Source: Parvularculaceae bacterium (GTDB taxonomy: Bacteria; Pseudomonadota; Alphaproteobacteria; Caulobacterales; Parvularculaceae). From it: 44,872 bases of DNA. This document shows, piece by piece, positions 2,472 through 8,587 of this stretch. The translations under genes were made by a program, and so were the position numbers. Every line of letters begins with the position of its first letter. Within the stretch, counting starts at the first letter, position 1. The stretch lies in assembly GCA_021776435.1 (NCBI GenBank), contig JAJFFW010000088.1, positions 1 through 44,872 on the forward strand, read 5' to 3'. The notes beneath the pieces were generated by a model. It had not been told where the DNA came from and ran no database searches. It saw only the letters and a list, made by a program, of their open reading frames with translations.

Positions 2472-3353
2472 ATGAATTGGGAAGACCTGCATTTTTTCAT
2501 GAAGACGGCTCAACTGGGTTCGCTCGCCGACGCCGCCGGAGAGCTCGGCGTTGATGCTACGACCGTGTCCAGGCGGGTTTCCGCCCTTGAACAATCCCTC
2601 AATACCCGATTGTTTAATCGCAAGGCCTCAAACTGGACGCTTACTGCGGCGGGCGAGCGTGTGTTGCGGGCGGCTAGCGAGATGTCATCCCAAACGAACG
2701 CAATCAAACGCATCGCTTTTGCAGAATCGGAAAATGTTCAAGGTGAGATACGAATAACGTCCGGCGGTGAGTTCATGCGCGTTTTTCTCGCACCAATCGT
2801 ATGGGCGTTTTGCGAATTAAATCCCAAAATATCAGTCAGGATGATTTCCGCATCCGCTTCCTTAAACCTAGATCGGCGTGAGGCGGACATTGCTTTTCGG
2901 ACCGTTGAAACGCCGCCACAAGATGTCGTCGCGCGAAAAATCGCGGATATTGGTTTCGCCGTCTATGGCCATCATGACCTTATTGAAAAAGGGCGCCTAC
3001 AAGAGCTGCCAATAGTAACGTGGATTAACGAGAGTGACGAGCCGCCGAAATGGAGTGAAAGCGTCGTACCGAATGCGCAGGTAATCCATAGGGTCAACCG
3101 CCAGGCATTGATGTTGGACGCAGTTGTTAGCGGCGCCGGACTGGCTTTGCTGCCATGCTGTCTTGGCGACCCAGAACCAATGTTGCGCCGAACGCCTGGC
3201 GAACACGTTTGGCCAACCGCACCATTGTGGATGCTTTATCACACAGATGCGCGTAAAAACCCGCGTCTCCGTGCTTTCCGTGGCTTTGTTGAGGACGCGT
3301 TGAAATTAAAAAGAGCAAACTTAGAACGCGGTGGGCTCAAGCACGCGTCATGA
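2472..3353 (+). CDS. LysR-family transcriptional regulator
   Basis: A 293-residue regulator. The N-terminal winged HTH (about residues 1-60) has the standard pattern: DLHFFMKTAQLGSLADAA, then VDATTVSRRVSALEQSL and TRLFNR. An effector-binding domain follows from about residue 90 (GEIRITSGGEFMRVFLAP). The C-terminal segment LPCCLGDPEPMLRR closely parallels LSCFIGDPDPRVIR in the LysR protein at 11214, so the two belong to one subfamily. It is divergently transcribed from the DUF1330-like gene and probably regulates that gene and possibly the SRPBCC/SDR genes beyond. No good Shine-Dalgarno precedes the start; the palindrome occupies that place. The effector is unknown. Confidence 0.9.
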   Translation: MNWEDLHFFMKTAQLGSLADAAGELGVDATTVSRRVSALEQSLNTRLFNRKASNWTLTAAGERVLRAASEMSSQTNAIKRIAFAESENVQGEIRITSGGEFMRVFLAPIVWAFCELNPKISVRMISASASLNLDRREADIAFRTVETPPQDVVARKIADIGFAVYGHHDLIEKGRLQELPIVTWINESDEPPKWSESVVPNAQVIHRVNRQALMLDAVVSGAGLALLPCCLGDPEPMLRRTPGEHVWPTAPLWMLYHTDARKNPRLRAFRGFVEDALKLKRANLERGGLKHAS

Positions 3354-3546
3354 GAAGGAAACCGCTCGCGCACGTCTCGCGGCGAATGTTTTGCCGTGTT
3401 TTCAGTGGATGCAAACGGCCCGGATTTGTTTCTCATTATCACTCCCTTCAACGGGGCAATGGACCAAAACGCTCTGTCGCCAATATACCTCAGCCTGTCT
3501 CATAAGTGCCGACACGTTAATCGGTCGCGTTGCATCTTTATCGCGA

Positions 3547-3557
3547 ATGTGCGACAT
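3547..3557. promoter_or_regulatory. Weak candidate BlaI-type dyad
   Basis: ATGT-GCG-ACAT, a short dyad about 35 bases upstream of the BlaI-like start. BlaI/MecI repressors bind TACA/TGTA-type dyads, so this is a possible operator, but the match is poor and could be chance. Confidence 0.2.
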
Positions 3558-3589
3558 GTGACGCTTCAATACGTCAAAGGACACGCCCT

Positions 3590-3976
3590 GTGGGAAAGCC
3601 GTCGGATTCCGAACTTAGACTCCTCCGCCAACTGTGGCGCGCGAAACAACTAAGCGCACGGGAACTGCATGATGCGACCGTCGGCGAGACCCGATGGTCC
3701 TATTCCACAACACGCAAAACGCTCGACCGCATGGTCGAAAAAGGGAGTGTACGTGTCGAACTGGTCCATGGATTAAAGACCTTTGTTGCCGCCACGTCCA
3801 AGCTTGAGACAGTGGCGAGCCTCGTTAACGACTTCGCGCGCAATGTGCTGGATCTGGATGGTCCGTTGCCGGCGGCGACTTTCGCGCACAGCAAAGTTGT
3901 CGACCCCGATGAAATCGAGGTGCTCGAGGCGCTGCTCGCTCAACAACACGACGAAAATGGAGGGGACCATTCGTGA
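3590..3976 (+). CDS. BlaI/MecI/CopY-family transcriptional repressor
   Basis: A 128-residue winged-helix repressor with the BlaI opening GKPSDSELRLLRQLWRAK, then SARELHD and WSYSTTRKTLDRMVEKGSV (recognition helix and wing). The GTG at 3590 was chosen: AAAGGA at 3576-3581 precedes it at good spacing, and the length then matches the family. A TTG at 3530 in the same frame would add an unrelated 20-residue leader. The stop overlaps the GTG start of the M56 gene by four bases, so the pair is translationally coupled. In the known Bla/Mec systems the M56 partner triggers cleavage of this repressor. The C-terminal half is family-typical only in length. Confidence 0.85.
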   Translation: MGKPSDSELRLLRQLWRAKQLSARELHDATVGETRWSYSTTRKTLDRMVEKGSVRVELVHGLKTFVAATSKLETVASLVNDFARNVLDLDGPLPAATFAHSKVVDPDEIEVLEALLAQQHDENGGDHS

Positions 3977-5340
3977 CCGCTGACGTTGTTGTGCTAACAA
4001 CCGCTCTTACTTTGTTGACCGTAATTGTGTGGAGTTGCGTCGTGGCCGTCGTTGACGCGCTGGCGCCGCCCCGCGTCGATGATCGACAGGAAGGCATATT
4101 GCTGGCGTTAATGATCGCGCCGACAATCGTTGGTGTGGCCGCGATGGTTGCGGAAAGCGTTTCGCCGAGCGTGACGTTTACGTTTACGAGCCTTGAAAAT
4201 GCTGGTGTCCTGGGCTTCCACGAAGCTATGCAAGACGCGGCCGCCAACAAGCGCGCCGTCGATTGGATGAAATGGGCGGCGTTTTTGGGTATGGGCGTTT
4301 ATGTCGTCGGCGTGGTGGCGTTCATTGTTCGATTGACCATTCACACTGTGCGCCTGCGTCGCGTCGCCGCTCACGCGAAGCCGATGAACCATGATTTGGA
4401 TTGCGATATCGCAATCACGTCTGAAGCCGTTCCGCCCTTTGTGAGCTTACGTGGTCGGATTATTGTTCCAAGCAACCTCATCGAGACTTTGACTGAGTGC
4501 CAGCTCTCAATGATTATCGATCACGAACGCGCGCACGTCCGCCGCGGAGACCCATTACTATTCCTGGCACTGTCATTCGTTGACGCGCTGTTCTGGATCA
4601 ATCCCTTTGTTCGACGGCAAACAAGCCGTTGCCGTCTGGCTGCCGAGATCGCTTGCGATAACGCGGTCACACGCTCAGCGCCCCTCATGCGAGATGCCTA
4701 CGCTATGACACTAGTGACGGTGTTGAAACAAGGCGTCGGGAAAGCGTTTGCATCTACCCCGACGTTATTCTCCACTCGGAGTAAAAGCGAGCATCAAATC
4801 AGAATCCGTCGAATCATGGCGAGAGTCGCGCCAGAGTGCACTCGAGGCGGGGTTGCAGTATTGGTAGGGTTAGCGGCGATGATGGCGCCCTTGGCGATCA
4901 TTCAATTCGCAGTTGCTCAATCCACGTCGAGCCAAACGCCCAACTTCTCTGTCGCTCCGGTCGAGGGGCGGCTGATGAGCGGTTTCGGGGAATATAACCA
5001 TTCGGTCACCAAGGCGCTCGAGGACGGTGTGATTATAGCCGCACCGTTGGAAACACCTGTCGTTGCGCCAGCCGCTGGCCGCGTCGTCCTCATCGCGTCT
5101 CACCCGGACGGCTATGGCGATTTCTTTTTGCTTGATCACGGCGACGGATACGTTGCGGGCTACGGACCGCAGAGAGAATTAGAAGTGGCCGTAGGTGACC
5201 AAGTCATCGCAGGGCAGACCATCGCCCACGTCGCTTCAAACAATCAAGGTATTGCACCGTTTCTCTTTATTACCGTGCTAAAGGATGGAGAGCCGGTCGA
5301 TCCAGCGAGCGTCATAAGCATTCCTAGCTCCCCTTCATAA
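3973..5340 (+). CDS. BlaR1-like M56 membrane metallopeptidase with degenerate LytM domain
   Basis: A 455-residue integral membrane protein with a GTG start overlapping the repressor stop. Transmembrane segments lie near residues 5-28, 42-60 and 103-122. The M56 zinc site follows: HERAH at 184-188, then WINPF and a third-ligand AEIACD (E225). A further membrane segment spans about 293-315. The remainder is a LytM/M23-shaped domain: the GVIIAAP...TPVVAPAAGRVV strand pattern, VAVGDQVIAGQTIAHV, and a closing DGEPVDP. The M23 metal ligands are gone. The HxxxD positions read E350 and I354, and the HLH positions read FLF (430-432). BlaR1 itself carries a penicillin-binding sensor at this place. The protein is therefore probably a sensor-protease acting on the adjacent repressor through a non-catalytic wall-recognition domain. 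That role is inference. Confidence 0.83.
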   Translation: MTADVVVLTTALTLLTVIVWSCVVAVVDALAPPRVDDRQEGILLALMIAPTIVGVAAMVAESVSPSVTFTFTSLENAGVLGFHEAMQDAAANKRAVDWMKWAAFLGMGVYVVGVVAFIVRLTIHTVRLRRVAAHAKPMNHDLDCDIAITSEAVPPFVSLRGRIIVPSNLIETLTECQLSMIIDHERAHVRRGDPLLFLALSFVDALFWINPFVRRQTSRCRLAAEIACDNAVTRSAPLMRDAYAMTLVTVLKQGVGKAFASTPTLFSTRSKSEHQIRIRRIMARVAPECTRGGVAVLVGLAAMMAPLAIIQFAVAQSTSSQTPNFSVAPVEGRLMSGFGEYNHSVTKALEDGVIIAAPLETPVVAPAAGRVVLIASHPDGYGDFFLLDHGDGYVAGYGPQRELEVAVGDQVIAGQTIAHVASNNQGIAPFLFITVLKDGEPVDPASVISIPSSPS

Positions 5341-5767
5341 AGGAGTCGCATGTATGATGCAGAGCGTAAATCGAAAATCATATGGCTGCTGACGTAAATG
5401 GGAAGTAGTGGATGGTTGCGCTCTCAGAGACTGGCAAACTGGCCATTCCGTTTTCGATCAATCATGATGTTTATGCATTAGAAAAATTGAAAACGGCCTC
5501 GTGGACGCGCCGGCAACACGGTTAAACGTGTACATGGAGTAGTTTAACGATTCGCGATTGCCTTCCATCATAAAATTGTTATTCTTGGTACAGATGTAAT
5601 CGCTAAGTGAATTCAGGAGAACGCAAAACCAATAGTCGATCGCCGGGTCAAATGGGGGCGACCACACTCTCGCACGCATGGGCCAGAGCATCGCATCGCG
5701 AAAAATGGCGTTGATTTTAAGGTTTGCCATTAGAGCAAATAATCCAACTGTTTAATTGGGGAAATGT
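5341..5767. other. Gene-poor spacer of 427 bases
   Basis: No recognised gene. A 90-residue open frame runs on the minus strand at 5458-5730 (start MANLKINAIFRDAML). It has no clear ribosome binding site, no recognisable domain and no homologue I can name, so it is not called as a gene. The promoter of the DUF2306 run probably lies near the right edge. GGGG at 5757-5760 is the likely Shine-Dalgarno of the next gene. Confidence 0.5.
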
Positions 5768-6634
5768 ATGAGTGAAAATGTATCGGCCGGGGGATTGGGG
5801 CCAAATTCCATTGCAAACGCGGTCTTAAAAGGATCGGCAATGCTTTGGTTTCTGGCGGCCGTCATTGGCCAATGGATTTTCGTATATTATGTAGCGGGCT
5901 ATTACGGCCCCGCGATTTTGCAAGGGGGTTTGGAGGGTTTGAAAGAAACCCACCTGCCAGGTGGGTATGTTGCTGGCGATACGATCGGAAATTTGGCCGT
6001 CGCCGCGCATCTATTCCTGGCCGTCATTATAGTCGGCGGCGGGCCGCTTCAGATTATGCTGGGCGCCATTTTATCCGGCGGCGGCCCGTTTCAGCATTTT
6101 CCGAAAATCCAGGCTGGCGTTCGATCCTTTCATCACTGGAATGGGCGTCTATACATATTGGCGGTTTTCACGACCGCTATTGTCGGTCTCTATATGATCC
6201 GGACCCGCGGAAACGTCGGGGGCTTGGTTGGAGAAATCGCTGTTAGTCTTGACGCCGTCCTGATCATGGTCTTCGCCGCCATCGCCTTGCGCTGTGCGAT
6301 TGCCCGTAACATTGATGCGCATCGCCGCTGGGCCCTTCGCCTGTTCATGGTGGTGAGCGCCGTCTGGTTTTTCCGGATCGGATTCATGTTCTGGATGATG
6401 CTCACCGGCGGCCTCGGTGTCGATCAGGAAACGTTTACGGGCCCGTTTCTTTCTTTCTGGTTTTACGGCCAATATCTTGTGCCTCTTGCCGTTCTTGAAT
6501 TCTATTTCCGCGCGCGGGACCGAGCCGACGCCTCAGGCAAGTTCGCAATGGCAGCGGTTCTCCTTGTGCTGACTGCTGCGACGGGCATTGGAACTTTCGC
6601 GGCCTATATGGGCATGTGGCACCCTCTTCTTTAA
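5768..6634 (+). CDS. DUF2306-family integral membrane protein
   Basis: A 288-residue polytopic membrane protein. The layout matches DUF2306: HLFLAVIIVGGGPLQIMLG, then FHHWNGRLYILAVFTTAIVGLYM, then IDAHRRWALRLFMVVSAVWFFRIGF. These are membrane helices carrying conserved His/Arg residues (the HxWxGR and HRRW signatures). The family's biochemical role is not established; the conserved histidines have suggested heme or quinone contact, but I cannot show that. The ATG at 5768 was taken over an in-frame TTG at 5756, since GGGG precedes it. It is first in a same-strand run that continues to 9627. Confidence 0.78.
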   Translation: MSENVSAGGLGPNSIANAVLKGSAMLWFLAAVIGQWIFVYYVAGYYGPAILQGGLEGLKETHLPGGYVAGDTIGNLAVAAHLFLAVIIVGGGPLQIMLGAILSGGGPFQHFPKIQAGVRSFHHWNGRLYILAVFTTAIVGLYMIRTRGNVGGLVGEIAVSLDAVLIMVFAAIALRCAIARNIDAHRRWALRLFMVVSAVWFFRIGFMFWMMLTGGLGVDQETFTGPFLSFWFYGQYLVPLAVLEFYFRARDRADASGKFAMAAVLLVLTAATGIGTFAAYMGMWHPLL

Positions 6635-6707
6635 GCTGGTCAGGTGGTGCGCGGGCATCAGTTCACAGGCGCCCAAGTTGAATGAAGTAAATTTCGGAGA
6701 TCAAAAA

Positions 6708-7442
6708 ATGACAGACCACGCCGCCGAAAAATCACAGCGTGCTGATGCGAGGTTAGCTGGCTTTTTATACCTAATTGTCGCGATTACTGGCACTGTGAGC
6801 ATAATGTATGTTCCGTCAAAACTAATAATTTGGGGAGATGCAACCGCAACGGCCAATAATATTATGGCTTCTGAATCATTATTCAGAGTTGGTATGGTGA
6901 GCGGGTTTATTTGCTATACGGTTTTTGTGTTTTTGCCTTTGGTTTTATACAAGTTACTCAAACCCGTTGATAAAAATCACGCTGTGCTTATGGTGATTTT
7001 GGCGCTAATCAGCGTTCCAATATCTTTTATATACCTACTGAACTGGCTTGTTGTGCTGTCCCTTTTAAGTGGTGCTGAATACTTGAACGTGTTCAATGCA
7101 GATCAAATAAATGCCTTGGCGATGATTTTTTTGAAATTTTATAACAGTGGAATTCTTGGTGTCGAAATATTTTGGGGGCTTTGGCTGTTTCCTTTCGGTT
7201 ATTTGGTTTTCAAATCTGGTTTTCTCCCCAGGATTTTAGGCATCCTCATGATGCTCGGTTGTCTTGGCTATCTCGTAGAATTTACTGGCTACACATTATT
7301 CGCGGCGACCTACAAAGACAGCATTCTTTCTACCTATGCAACATTGCCGGCCGCTTTGGGAGAATTTGGAATTATACTGTGGCTTTTGATCGTGGGTGTA
7401 AAACCCCGAAAGCTGGATAAAGTGAAAAAGGTACGATTGTAG
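6708..7442 (+). CDS. DUF4386-family membrane protein
   Basis: A 244-residue membrane protein. ADARLAGFLYLIVAITG and a second-segment ATANNIMASESLFRVGMVSGFICY match the DUF4386 signature, followed by further hydrophobic helices to residue 235. Function unknown. The ATG at 6708 has GGAGA seven bases upstream; a longer in-frame start at 6588 lies inside the DUF2306 gene and is rejected. The gene is visibly richer in A and T than its neighbours (many tta, aat and att codons), which suggests separate acquisition. Confidence 0.75.
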   Translation: MTDHAAEKSQRADARLAGFLYLIVAITGTVSIMYVPSKLIIWGDATATANNIMASESLFRVGMVSGFICYTVFVFLPLVLYKLLKPVDKNHAVLMVILALISVPISFIYLLNWLVVLSLLSGAEYLNVFNADQINALAMIFLKFYNSGILGVEIFWGLWLFPFGYLVFKSGFLPRILGILMMLGCLGYLVEFTGYTLFAATYKDSILSTYATLPAALGEFGIILWLLIVGVKPRKLDKVKKVRL

Positions 7443-7561
7443 AATGAAGATTTGTGGCCACGAAGCGGCAATATCCGTATGGCGCCATGACCATGCCCGC
7501 CCGACGACTTAAAGCTTTTTGATGACAGAAAGTTCACGCAACAACAAAAGGAACTCAATTG

Positions 7562-8587
7562 ATGTTTCGAATTTTCATCTCCATTATTGCTGGTTTTTTG
7601 CTGATCAGCGCCGCGCAGGCGCAAGACGCGCCACAGGTGCCGCCCTATAAAGCAGCGGAGTTCTCCGCTGAGTTTCCATATGAATCAAAGTTTATCGACG
7701 TGCGCGGCTCAAAGATACACTATATCGACGAAGGCGAGGGTGACACCTTTTTGTTTCTCCATGGGAATCCGACATCGAGTTATCTGTGGCGTAATGTCAT
7801 GCGTTATGTGAAACCGCATGGTCGAATTGTTGCTGTCGATAATATTGGCTTCGGTAAATCTGATAAACCGGATGTAGACTATACCCTACAAACCCATATC
7901 GAATATACAAATGCTTTTATCGACGAGCTTGGACTTAAAAATGTTATTCTTGTGGTCCATGATTGGGGGTCGGCGCTAGGTCTCAATTATGCCGCCACAC
8001 ATTCCCGCAATGTTAAAGGCATTGTTATGATGGAGGCGCTTATACCACCGACATTTCCAGCGGAATCAGTAGATATTTTCGGTCCAGCGGCGGATATGTT
8101 TCGCAGTTTCAGAGATCCAGAAATGGGCCGTGAGCTGATTATCAATCAAAACGTCTTTATTGAACAGTTTTTGGGGAATGCCGCCGTTACGCGATCTATG
8201 CCTGACGAGGTTGTCGATGTTTATCGCGAGCCGTTTCTCGAGCCATCAGCCCGCGAGCCGATATACGTTTGGCCGCGTGAGCTCCCAATTGGCGGCATCC
8301 CTGCGCGAAATGTTGAAGTTTTTGAGCGTTATGGCAAATGGTTGAAAAAATCCCGCACGCCAAAACTTCTACAATATGTTTCGCCTGGCGGCTTGGTTTC
8401 GCCTGATCGCGCTGATTGGGCCGCAAATAATTTTCGCAATATTGAAACGCAATTCGTCGGTTATGGTGCCCATTTCATTCAGGAAGACAATCCGCAAGCG
8501 ATCGGTCGCGGCATTGTCGATTGGCACCGGCGTAACTTCAAGCGAAAACGCGACTGTTCCTTTCTATCTAAATGCGGGCCAGGATAG
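7562..8587 (+). CDS. Exported haloalkane dehalogenase (HLD-II type)
   Basis: An alpha/beta hydrolase predicted to cleave carbon-halogen bonds, giving alcohol, halide and a proton. It has 341 residues starting at ATG 7562 (AAAAGGA upstream), with a signal peptide likely cut after AQA (residue 20). Motifs match DhaA/LinB-type enzymes. HGNPTSSYLWRN gives oxyanion/halide Asn69. HDWGSALG gives nucleophile Asp134 and halide-binding Trp135. The acid Glu158 lies in MMEAL, and the base His304 in GAHFIQEDNP. Spacing from nucleophile to acid is 24, as in DhaA. REPFLEPSAREP and WPRELPI are also family signatures. Odd points are the export signal and a Lys/Arg/Cys-rich 15-residue tail after the usual end. 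The substrate cannot be read from sequence. Confidence 0.88.
   Translation: MFRIFISIIAGFLLISAAQAQDAPQVPPYKAAEFSAEFPYESKFIDVRGSKIHYIDEGEGDTFLFLHGNPTSSYLWRNVMRYVKPHGRIVAVDNIGFGKSDKPDVDYTLQTHIEYTNAFIDELGLKNVILVVHDWGSALGLNYAATHSRNVKGIVMMEALIPPTFPAESVDIFGPAADMFRSFRDPEMGRELIINQNVFIEQFLGNAAVTRSMPDEVVDVYREPFLEPSAREPIYVWPRELPIGGIPARNVEVFERYGKWLKKSRTPKLLQYVSPGGLVSPDRADWAANNFRNIETQFVGYGAHFIQEDNPQAIGRGIVDWHRRNFKRKRDCSFLSKCGPG

Follow-up and report, generated by a model that had tools for sequence, protein, structure and literature searches.

A BlaI-linked M56 membrane protease with a non-catalytic M23/LytM domain, a candidate BlaR1-like receptor in a Parvularculaceae bacterium

Introduction

Signalling of the BlaR1 type has been known chiefly for its detection of beta-lactam drugs. 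The sensor of BlaR1 resembles class D beta-lactamases but has a much slower turnover (PMC7593790), and its EL1 loop has been proposed to occupy the sensor groove until displaced by a beta-lactam (PMC9834060). The window analyzed here, a stretch of 44,872 nucleotides from a Parvularculaceae bacterium (GCA_021776435.1, contig JAJFFW010000088.1), carries a gene pair of this layout in which an M23/LytM domain stands in the place of the sensor. What might such a receptor detect, when the domain that faces the wall appears unable to cut it? A sequence-only reading of the locus had suggested a cell-wall sensor that binds rather than cleaves. We found no functional study of M56-M23 proteins in the open literature, where the architecture is mentioned once, in one sentence of an M23 review that estimates combinations of M23 with other catalytic domains at <1% of M23 proteins (PMC9662197).

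Results

Organization of the gene pair

3576-3581, + strand: ribosome-binding site AAAGGA, 8 bp 5' of the GTG start (from the sequence)
3590-3976, + strand: gene for a BlaI/MecI-family repressor of 128 aa, GTG at 3590 to TGA at 3976, with a winged-helix N-terminus (Pfam)
3973-5340, + strand: gene for an M56 membrane metalloprotease-M23/LytM fusion of 455 aa (Pfam, AlphaFold model and fold matches)

The sequence-only reading had described a Bla/Mec layout with a four-base overlap, and its coordinates proved right. The repressor and fusion genes share the bases GTGA (3973-3976). The repressor covered positions 2-115 of the 115 positions of Pfam Penicillinase_R (PF03965, E 6.9e-16), and the fusion matched Peptidase_M56 over residues 54-279 (E 1.2e-23). 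A frame or start error was ruled out, as the reading frame was open and both domains were complete.

The repressor also gave a profile match to MecI (1sd6, E 1.1e-12). Comparison of a profile from 17 BlaI partners with structures 1sd4 and 1okr aligned F98 of the window BlaI with Phe102 of S. aureus BlaI (1sd4), the P1' residue at the known cleavage site (PMC9834060); this position was Phe in 16 of the 17 partners and Leu in the other. A peptidoglycan dipeptide has been reported to bind BlaI directly (PMC3305447), so that a second input derived from the wall is conceivable.

The M56 protease half retains the BlaR1 catalytic set

4162-4263, + strand: extracytoplasmic loop, residues 64-97, between TM2 and TM3 at the place of BlaR1 EL1 (homology and model)
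4522-4536, + strand: HERAH zinc motif of the M56 protease, residues 184-188, invariant in 22 fusions
4768-4770, + strand: F266, 23 residues past Y243, the predicted counterpart of BlaR1 Phe284 at P1' of the autocleavage loop
4846-4923, + strand: TM4, residues 292-317, with a signal-peptidase-like A-V-A-Q motif at its end (AxA in relatives)

The intact HERAH motif, noted earlier from the sequence, proved to be part of a complete set. Residues H184, E185, H188, D193, E225, D229, Y243 and R277 showed no variation among the 22 fusions; their BlaR1 counterparts are His201/Glu202/His205, Asp210, Glu242/Asp246, Tyr261 and Arg294 (PMC9834060). Thus, the gluzincin zinc site (HExxH and ExxxD) and its supporting Asp, Tyr and Arg are all present. 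The profile alignment to BlaR1 stopped short of the autocleavage loop, and the match of F266 to Phe284 rests on spacing, the distance from Y243 being equal to that between Tyr261 and Phe284. The F266 position was Phe in 20 of the 22 fusions and Leu in two. In the M56 partners, the autocleavage loop reads small-small-x-Phe, similar to the cut-site sequence of BlaI, as would be expected if one active site cleaves both.

In an AlphaFold2 model (22 sequences in the alignment, mean pLDDT 77), residues 10-275 fold as S. aureus BlaR1 (8ext, residues 1-291; Z 16.5, rmsd 3.6). The model helices 3-29, 37-63, 79-134 and 291-318 correspond to four TM helices with an extracytoplasmic domain past TM4, a topology assigned by homology. 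The loop of residues 64-97 was 59% identical to that of the nearest orthologue, L051; residues 65-90 had low confidence in the model, and binding of an EL1-like loop to the groove is not readable there. TM4 of the window protein and of nearly all fusions resembles a signal peptide, with Arg before it and AxA after it. The AxA motif lies after or near the end of TM4 within an otherwise poorly conserved stretch. The signal peptidase SpsB cuts BlaR1 at an equivalent place (PMC9834060), and shedding of the sensor may therefore be general.

The C-terminal domain has an M23 fold without an active site

4954-5322, + strand: non-catalytic M23/LytM domain, residues 328-450, with five active-site positions replaced (fold and conservation)

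The claim that no penicillin-binding sensor follows the protease was borne out. A C-terminal penicillin-binding domain with SxxK was absent, the C-terminus being occupied by an M23 domain (Peptidase_M23, residues 351-444, E 3e-18), and the NCBIfam models BlaR1, MecR1 and blaR1_generic scored far under their cut-offs. The EnvC, ActS and NlpD models were among the best family matches, yet these also fell far under cut-off. The LytM-like shape read from the sequence was recovered by structure prediction, in which the region of about residues 320-450 folded as M23, with StM23 (Z 18.1) and the LytM domain of EnvC (Z 17.6) as matches in model comparison.

According to the roles of M23 active-site residues given in a review (PMC9662197), catalysis requires zinc ligands from HxxxD and the second His of HxH together with two catalytic histidines. 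All of these are replaced in the window protein, the zinc ligands by E350, I354 and F432 and the catalytic histidines by P399 and F430. Positions 350, 354, 430 and 432 were those singled out in the sequence-only reading; P399, the equivalent of LytM His260, adds a fifth lost position.

The non-catalytic domain is conserved in an orthologue

The nearest orthologue, L051, is encoded in a genome of a different genus (G259) and was 61% identical to the window protein (E 4e-179). It carries D350, I354, P399, F430 and F432, having lost the same five positions, and is the sole orthologue known with full five-site loss; its genome bin is 84% complete with 3% contamination, and its contig could be misassigned. 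In the tree, the two proteins formed a fully supported clade within ligand-intact relatives. Most simply, the five-site loss would predate the split of the two lineages. A single-genome artefact or chance pattern was excluded by the same five losses in another genus.

The M23 domains of the two proteins were 64% identical, compared with 68% for the cytoplasmic part of M56 and 40% for TM4 and the linker. Fourfold-degenerate sites in the M23 part were only 28% identical, that is, randomised. NG86 estimates for the M23 domain were dN 0.24 and dS 2.2, a ratio that is rough because dS is near saturation. Since 64% identity persists at saturated synonymous sites, the sequence comparison gives a clear indication that the dead domain has been kept by purifying selection. 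Identity and codon statistics likewise excluded a pseudogene in decay.

M56-M23 fusions are common in related bacteria and have probably lost catalytic residues stepwise

Searches of the family, order and class indicated that M56-M23 fusions are common in the bacterial order of the window, and most of those examined directly follow a blaI gene. They occur in a short form of about 450 aa and a long form of about 730-950 aa with an additional C-terminal tail. A single-sequence scan of named genomes gave no matches; an alignment scan gave a few distant named fusions (Kordiimonas, Aliikangiella, Duganella), together with many stand-alone M23 genes that served as controls. In a 385-genome sample of the class, only the window's own genome matched at E <= 1e-30. 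Plasmids gave partial matches only, the best among the matches listed being to the M23 domain.

The three zinc ligands were kept in 44 of the 47 fusions read, the exceptions being the window protein, L051 and L032, and some ligand-intact fusions may still be enzymes. In L032, a long-form fusion (G023), the M23 domain has collapsed: about 67 residues can still be recognised and the motifs are gone, apparently a separate loss. These results altered the earlier picture in part: the pair is not a one-genome oddity but belongs to a common M56-M23 family, and most relatives have intact ligands. Such homologues had been named as evidence against a binding role. They do not overturn it, since the domain is conserved and has lost the same positions in the close orthologue.

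The equivalent of LytM His260 was Gln in 21 of the 47 fusions, versus none of 92 stand-alone, ligand-intact M23 domains, all of which had His (80 from the scan of named genomes, eight from related genomes of the order and four from the window's own genome). The Gln rows required three changes on the tree, and a constraint to a single clade was rejected (p-AU 2.2e-6, an indicative value, as the group was defined after the first tree had been seen). On this analysis, Gln at the His260 position appears to have more than one origin. In L053 (G083), the zinc ligands are retained and only the general-base His of HxH is lost, to Gln (TQLHIE). Together, the repeated Gln and the loss in L053 suggest that catalysis was probably weakened several times where M23 was fused to M56. 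With zinc ligands mostly kept, a catalytic His lost in nearly half of the relatives and all five residues gone here, the sensor seems to have shifted from enzyme towards pure receptor in the lineage of the window, a course comparable to that of BlaR1, whose class D beta-lactamase-like sensor has a slowed turnover.

Other arrangements were also seen. In G028 (L039) and G006 (L043), one blaI gene is followed by a tandem of an M56 gene (531 and 540 aa, respectively) and an M56-M23 fusion (473 and 475 aa). The window's own genome has a second blaI-M56 pair (L001, C123:63658-65600) in which a long charged C-terminal tail replaces M23.

Operator and promoter of the operon

3530-3558, + strand: predicted blaI operon promoter, -35 TTGCAT (3530-3535), 17-bp spacer and weak -10 GACATG (3553-3558), a layout shared with relatives
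3550-3565, no strand assigned: predicted BlaI operator TGCGACATGTGACGCT, two mismatches to the family consensus TGCGACANNTGTCGCA, overlapping the -10

A palindrome, TGCGACA-N2-TGTCGCA, was found 5' of blaI in 19 loci, with two or fewer mismatches in 17 of them, and in 13 of the 19 a -35 and a 17-bp spacer precede a -10-like hexamer that lies within the palindrome. A site with two or fewer mismatches would be expected by chance about 0.0015 times per 200 bp (22 places in the 2.96 Mb of the window's own genome). The orthologue promoter reads TTGACT-17-GACATA. In the window, the right half of the operator is weak and the -10 is poor, and a generic sigma-70 scan missed the promoter.

The exact local operator form, TGCGACATRTGNCGC, occurs once in the window's own genome and once in G259, each time at the blaI promoter; all one-mismatch sites for it lie within open frames. 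The genome of each relative had 0-4 copies of the palindrome with one or no mismatch, and most of these lay at the blaI promoter. A wider regulon was considered and rejected, because all but two of the other operator-like sites in the window's own genome lie in ORFs, and the two that fall between ORFs have no matching -35. A conserved palindrome over the promoter that is nearly unique in each genome makes the circuit look autoregulatory, as far as sequence can tell. No target besides its own promoter was found, and the system may thus adjust its own level; the receptor may itself be the output, or the output may lie in genes whose operators are too diverged to recognise.

No conserved wall-gene partner adjoins the operon, the neighbours being housekeeping genes or genes of no assigned role (MetRS, M20 peptidase, acyl-CoA synthetase). 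Downstream, genes for DUF2306, DUF4386 and an alpha/beta-hydrolase (window 5756-8587; G259, L067 859-4521) form a block common to the orthologue only, which may have been co-inherited or transferred. Upstream, a gene for a DUF1330-containing protein (1592-2500, - strand) is divergent from one for a LysR-type regulator (2472-3353, + strand), the start of which is overlapped by the longest ORF of the former.

Discussion

On balance, we think that the locus is probably a BlaR1/BlaI-type switch of one receptor and one repressor, with a retired M23 peptidoglycan endopeptidase as its extracytoplasmic sensor. The repressor would bind the conserved palindrome over its own promoter and keep the operon low. 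Judged by homology and the model, the fusion would be an inner-membrane protein that exposes its M56 site to the cytoplasm and carries the M23 domain on the periplasmic side. A stem peptide of peptidoglycan, or a wall-bound partner protein, might fill the vacant M23 groove, and its occupancy could displace the TM2-TM3 loop as beta-lactams do EL1 in BlaR1. The conserved sites suggest that M56 would then cut BlaI just before F98, and its own chain at F266 or nearby. Derepression and turnover of the operon would follow, and signal peptidase might shed the sensor past TM4. The link between the M56 protease and cleavage of the repressor, proposed earlier, appears stronger now, given the conserved operator, the cleavage-site Phe and the complete BlaR1 catalytic set.

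The dead groove could instead serve as that of an EnvC/NlpD-like adaptor, either binding and activating a wall amidase or similar partner or sensing it, while M56-BlaI only sets the amount of the adaptor. Degenerate LytM domains are known amidase activators (PMC9662197), and EnvC was prominent among both the fold and the family matches. However, degenerate M23 proteins of the NlpD and EnvC types are already encoded elsewhere in the genome (L198, which has N/N/Q, and L204), and the complete protease and repressor pair would be superfluous for an adaptor; we regard this role as unlikely. The comparison with EnvC and NlpD in the sequence-only reading therefore stands in its more general part, binding rather than cutting, which accords with the conservation of the non-catalytic domain in L051 under purifying selection, but EnvC/NlpD is one option only and a BlaR1-style groove is at least as likely. 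It seems improbable that the M23 domain is a released product, with TM4 as an internal signal peptide that is cut after AxA to yield a soluble periplasmic M23 protein. The AxA motif of nearly all fusions and the cleavage of BlaR1 by SpsB would fit such a release, but the BlaR1 cut has been proposed to act in turnover and not in delivery, small residues past TM4 also occur in some M56 proteins of the family that lack M23 (L024, L026), and a domain released from the window protein would be inactive.

The loss of all five active-site residues, and the collapsed domain of L032, might also be taken to mean that the M23 domain is a functionless, decaying remnant. This is very doubtful, as the domain is nearly as well conserved as M56 at randomised synonymous sites, both frames are open, and I354, P399, F430 and F432 are common to the orthologue. 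That same conservation of the replacements (E/D350 included) could be read as a metal-free or novel-chemistry enzyme using the acidic residue 350, F430 and F432. We give this hardly any credence, because M23 proteins that lack part of the catalytic set have been described as having a binding role (PMC9662197) and aromatic and aliphatic replacements fit binding better than catalysis.

Returning to the switch with a retired endopeptidase as sensor, a broader proposal is offered more tentatively. M56-M23 proteins could be widespread, undescribed BlaR1-like receptors for the cell's own peptidoglycan, with a hydrolase-derived sensor that lost catalysis repeatedly and stepwise, is fully dead in the lineage of the window, and signals to its own promoter through BlaI cleavage. 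If M56-M23 receptors do read peptidoglycan, they would show what a BlaR1-type machine may sense outside antibiotic resistance. The window offers a clean test object: the sensor domain is fully dead and the protease intact, a cut site in the repressor is predicted, and the operator occurs once in the genome.

EnvC, NlpD and DipM are cell-division proteins that control amidases. Their LytM domains resemble that of the window in having an M23 fold with a lost metal site, kept for binding, whereas the window domain is carried on an M56 protease beside BlaI; to our knowledge, neither setting has been found for a LytM domain of the EnvC/NlpD/DipM type. The M56-M23 relatives share the two domains in the same order and, in the relatives fetched, the same operon and operator, but nearly all keep their zinc ligands, unlike the window protein and its orthologue.

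The BlaR1-BlaI and MecR1-MecI systems of S. aureus differ from the window pair in that their sensor is penicillin-binding and not M23/LytM, and in gene order, blaI being the first gene of the window pair. Moreover, the pair has no visible beta-lactamase or mec-type target, and its only recognisable operator is its own. The likeness otherwise extends through a repressor paired with an M56 protease, the TM topology, the fold over residues 10-275 and all catalytic residues, to an autocleavage-type Phe, a Phe at the BlaI cut site, a palindromic operator and a small-residue motif past TM4. In both systems, too, the sensor descends from an enzyme that acts on the wall or on antibiotics and has reduced catalysis; M56-M23 receptors, if they read peptidoglycan itself, would be a second case of such an enzyme turned sensor.
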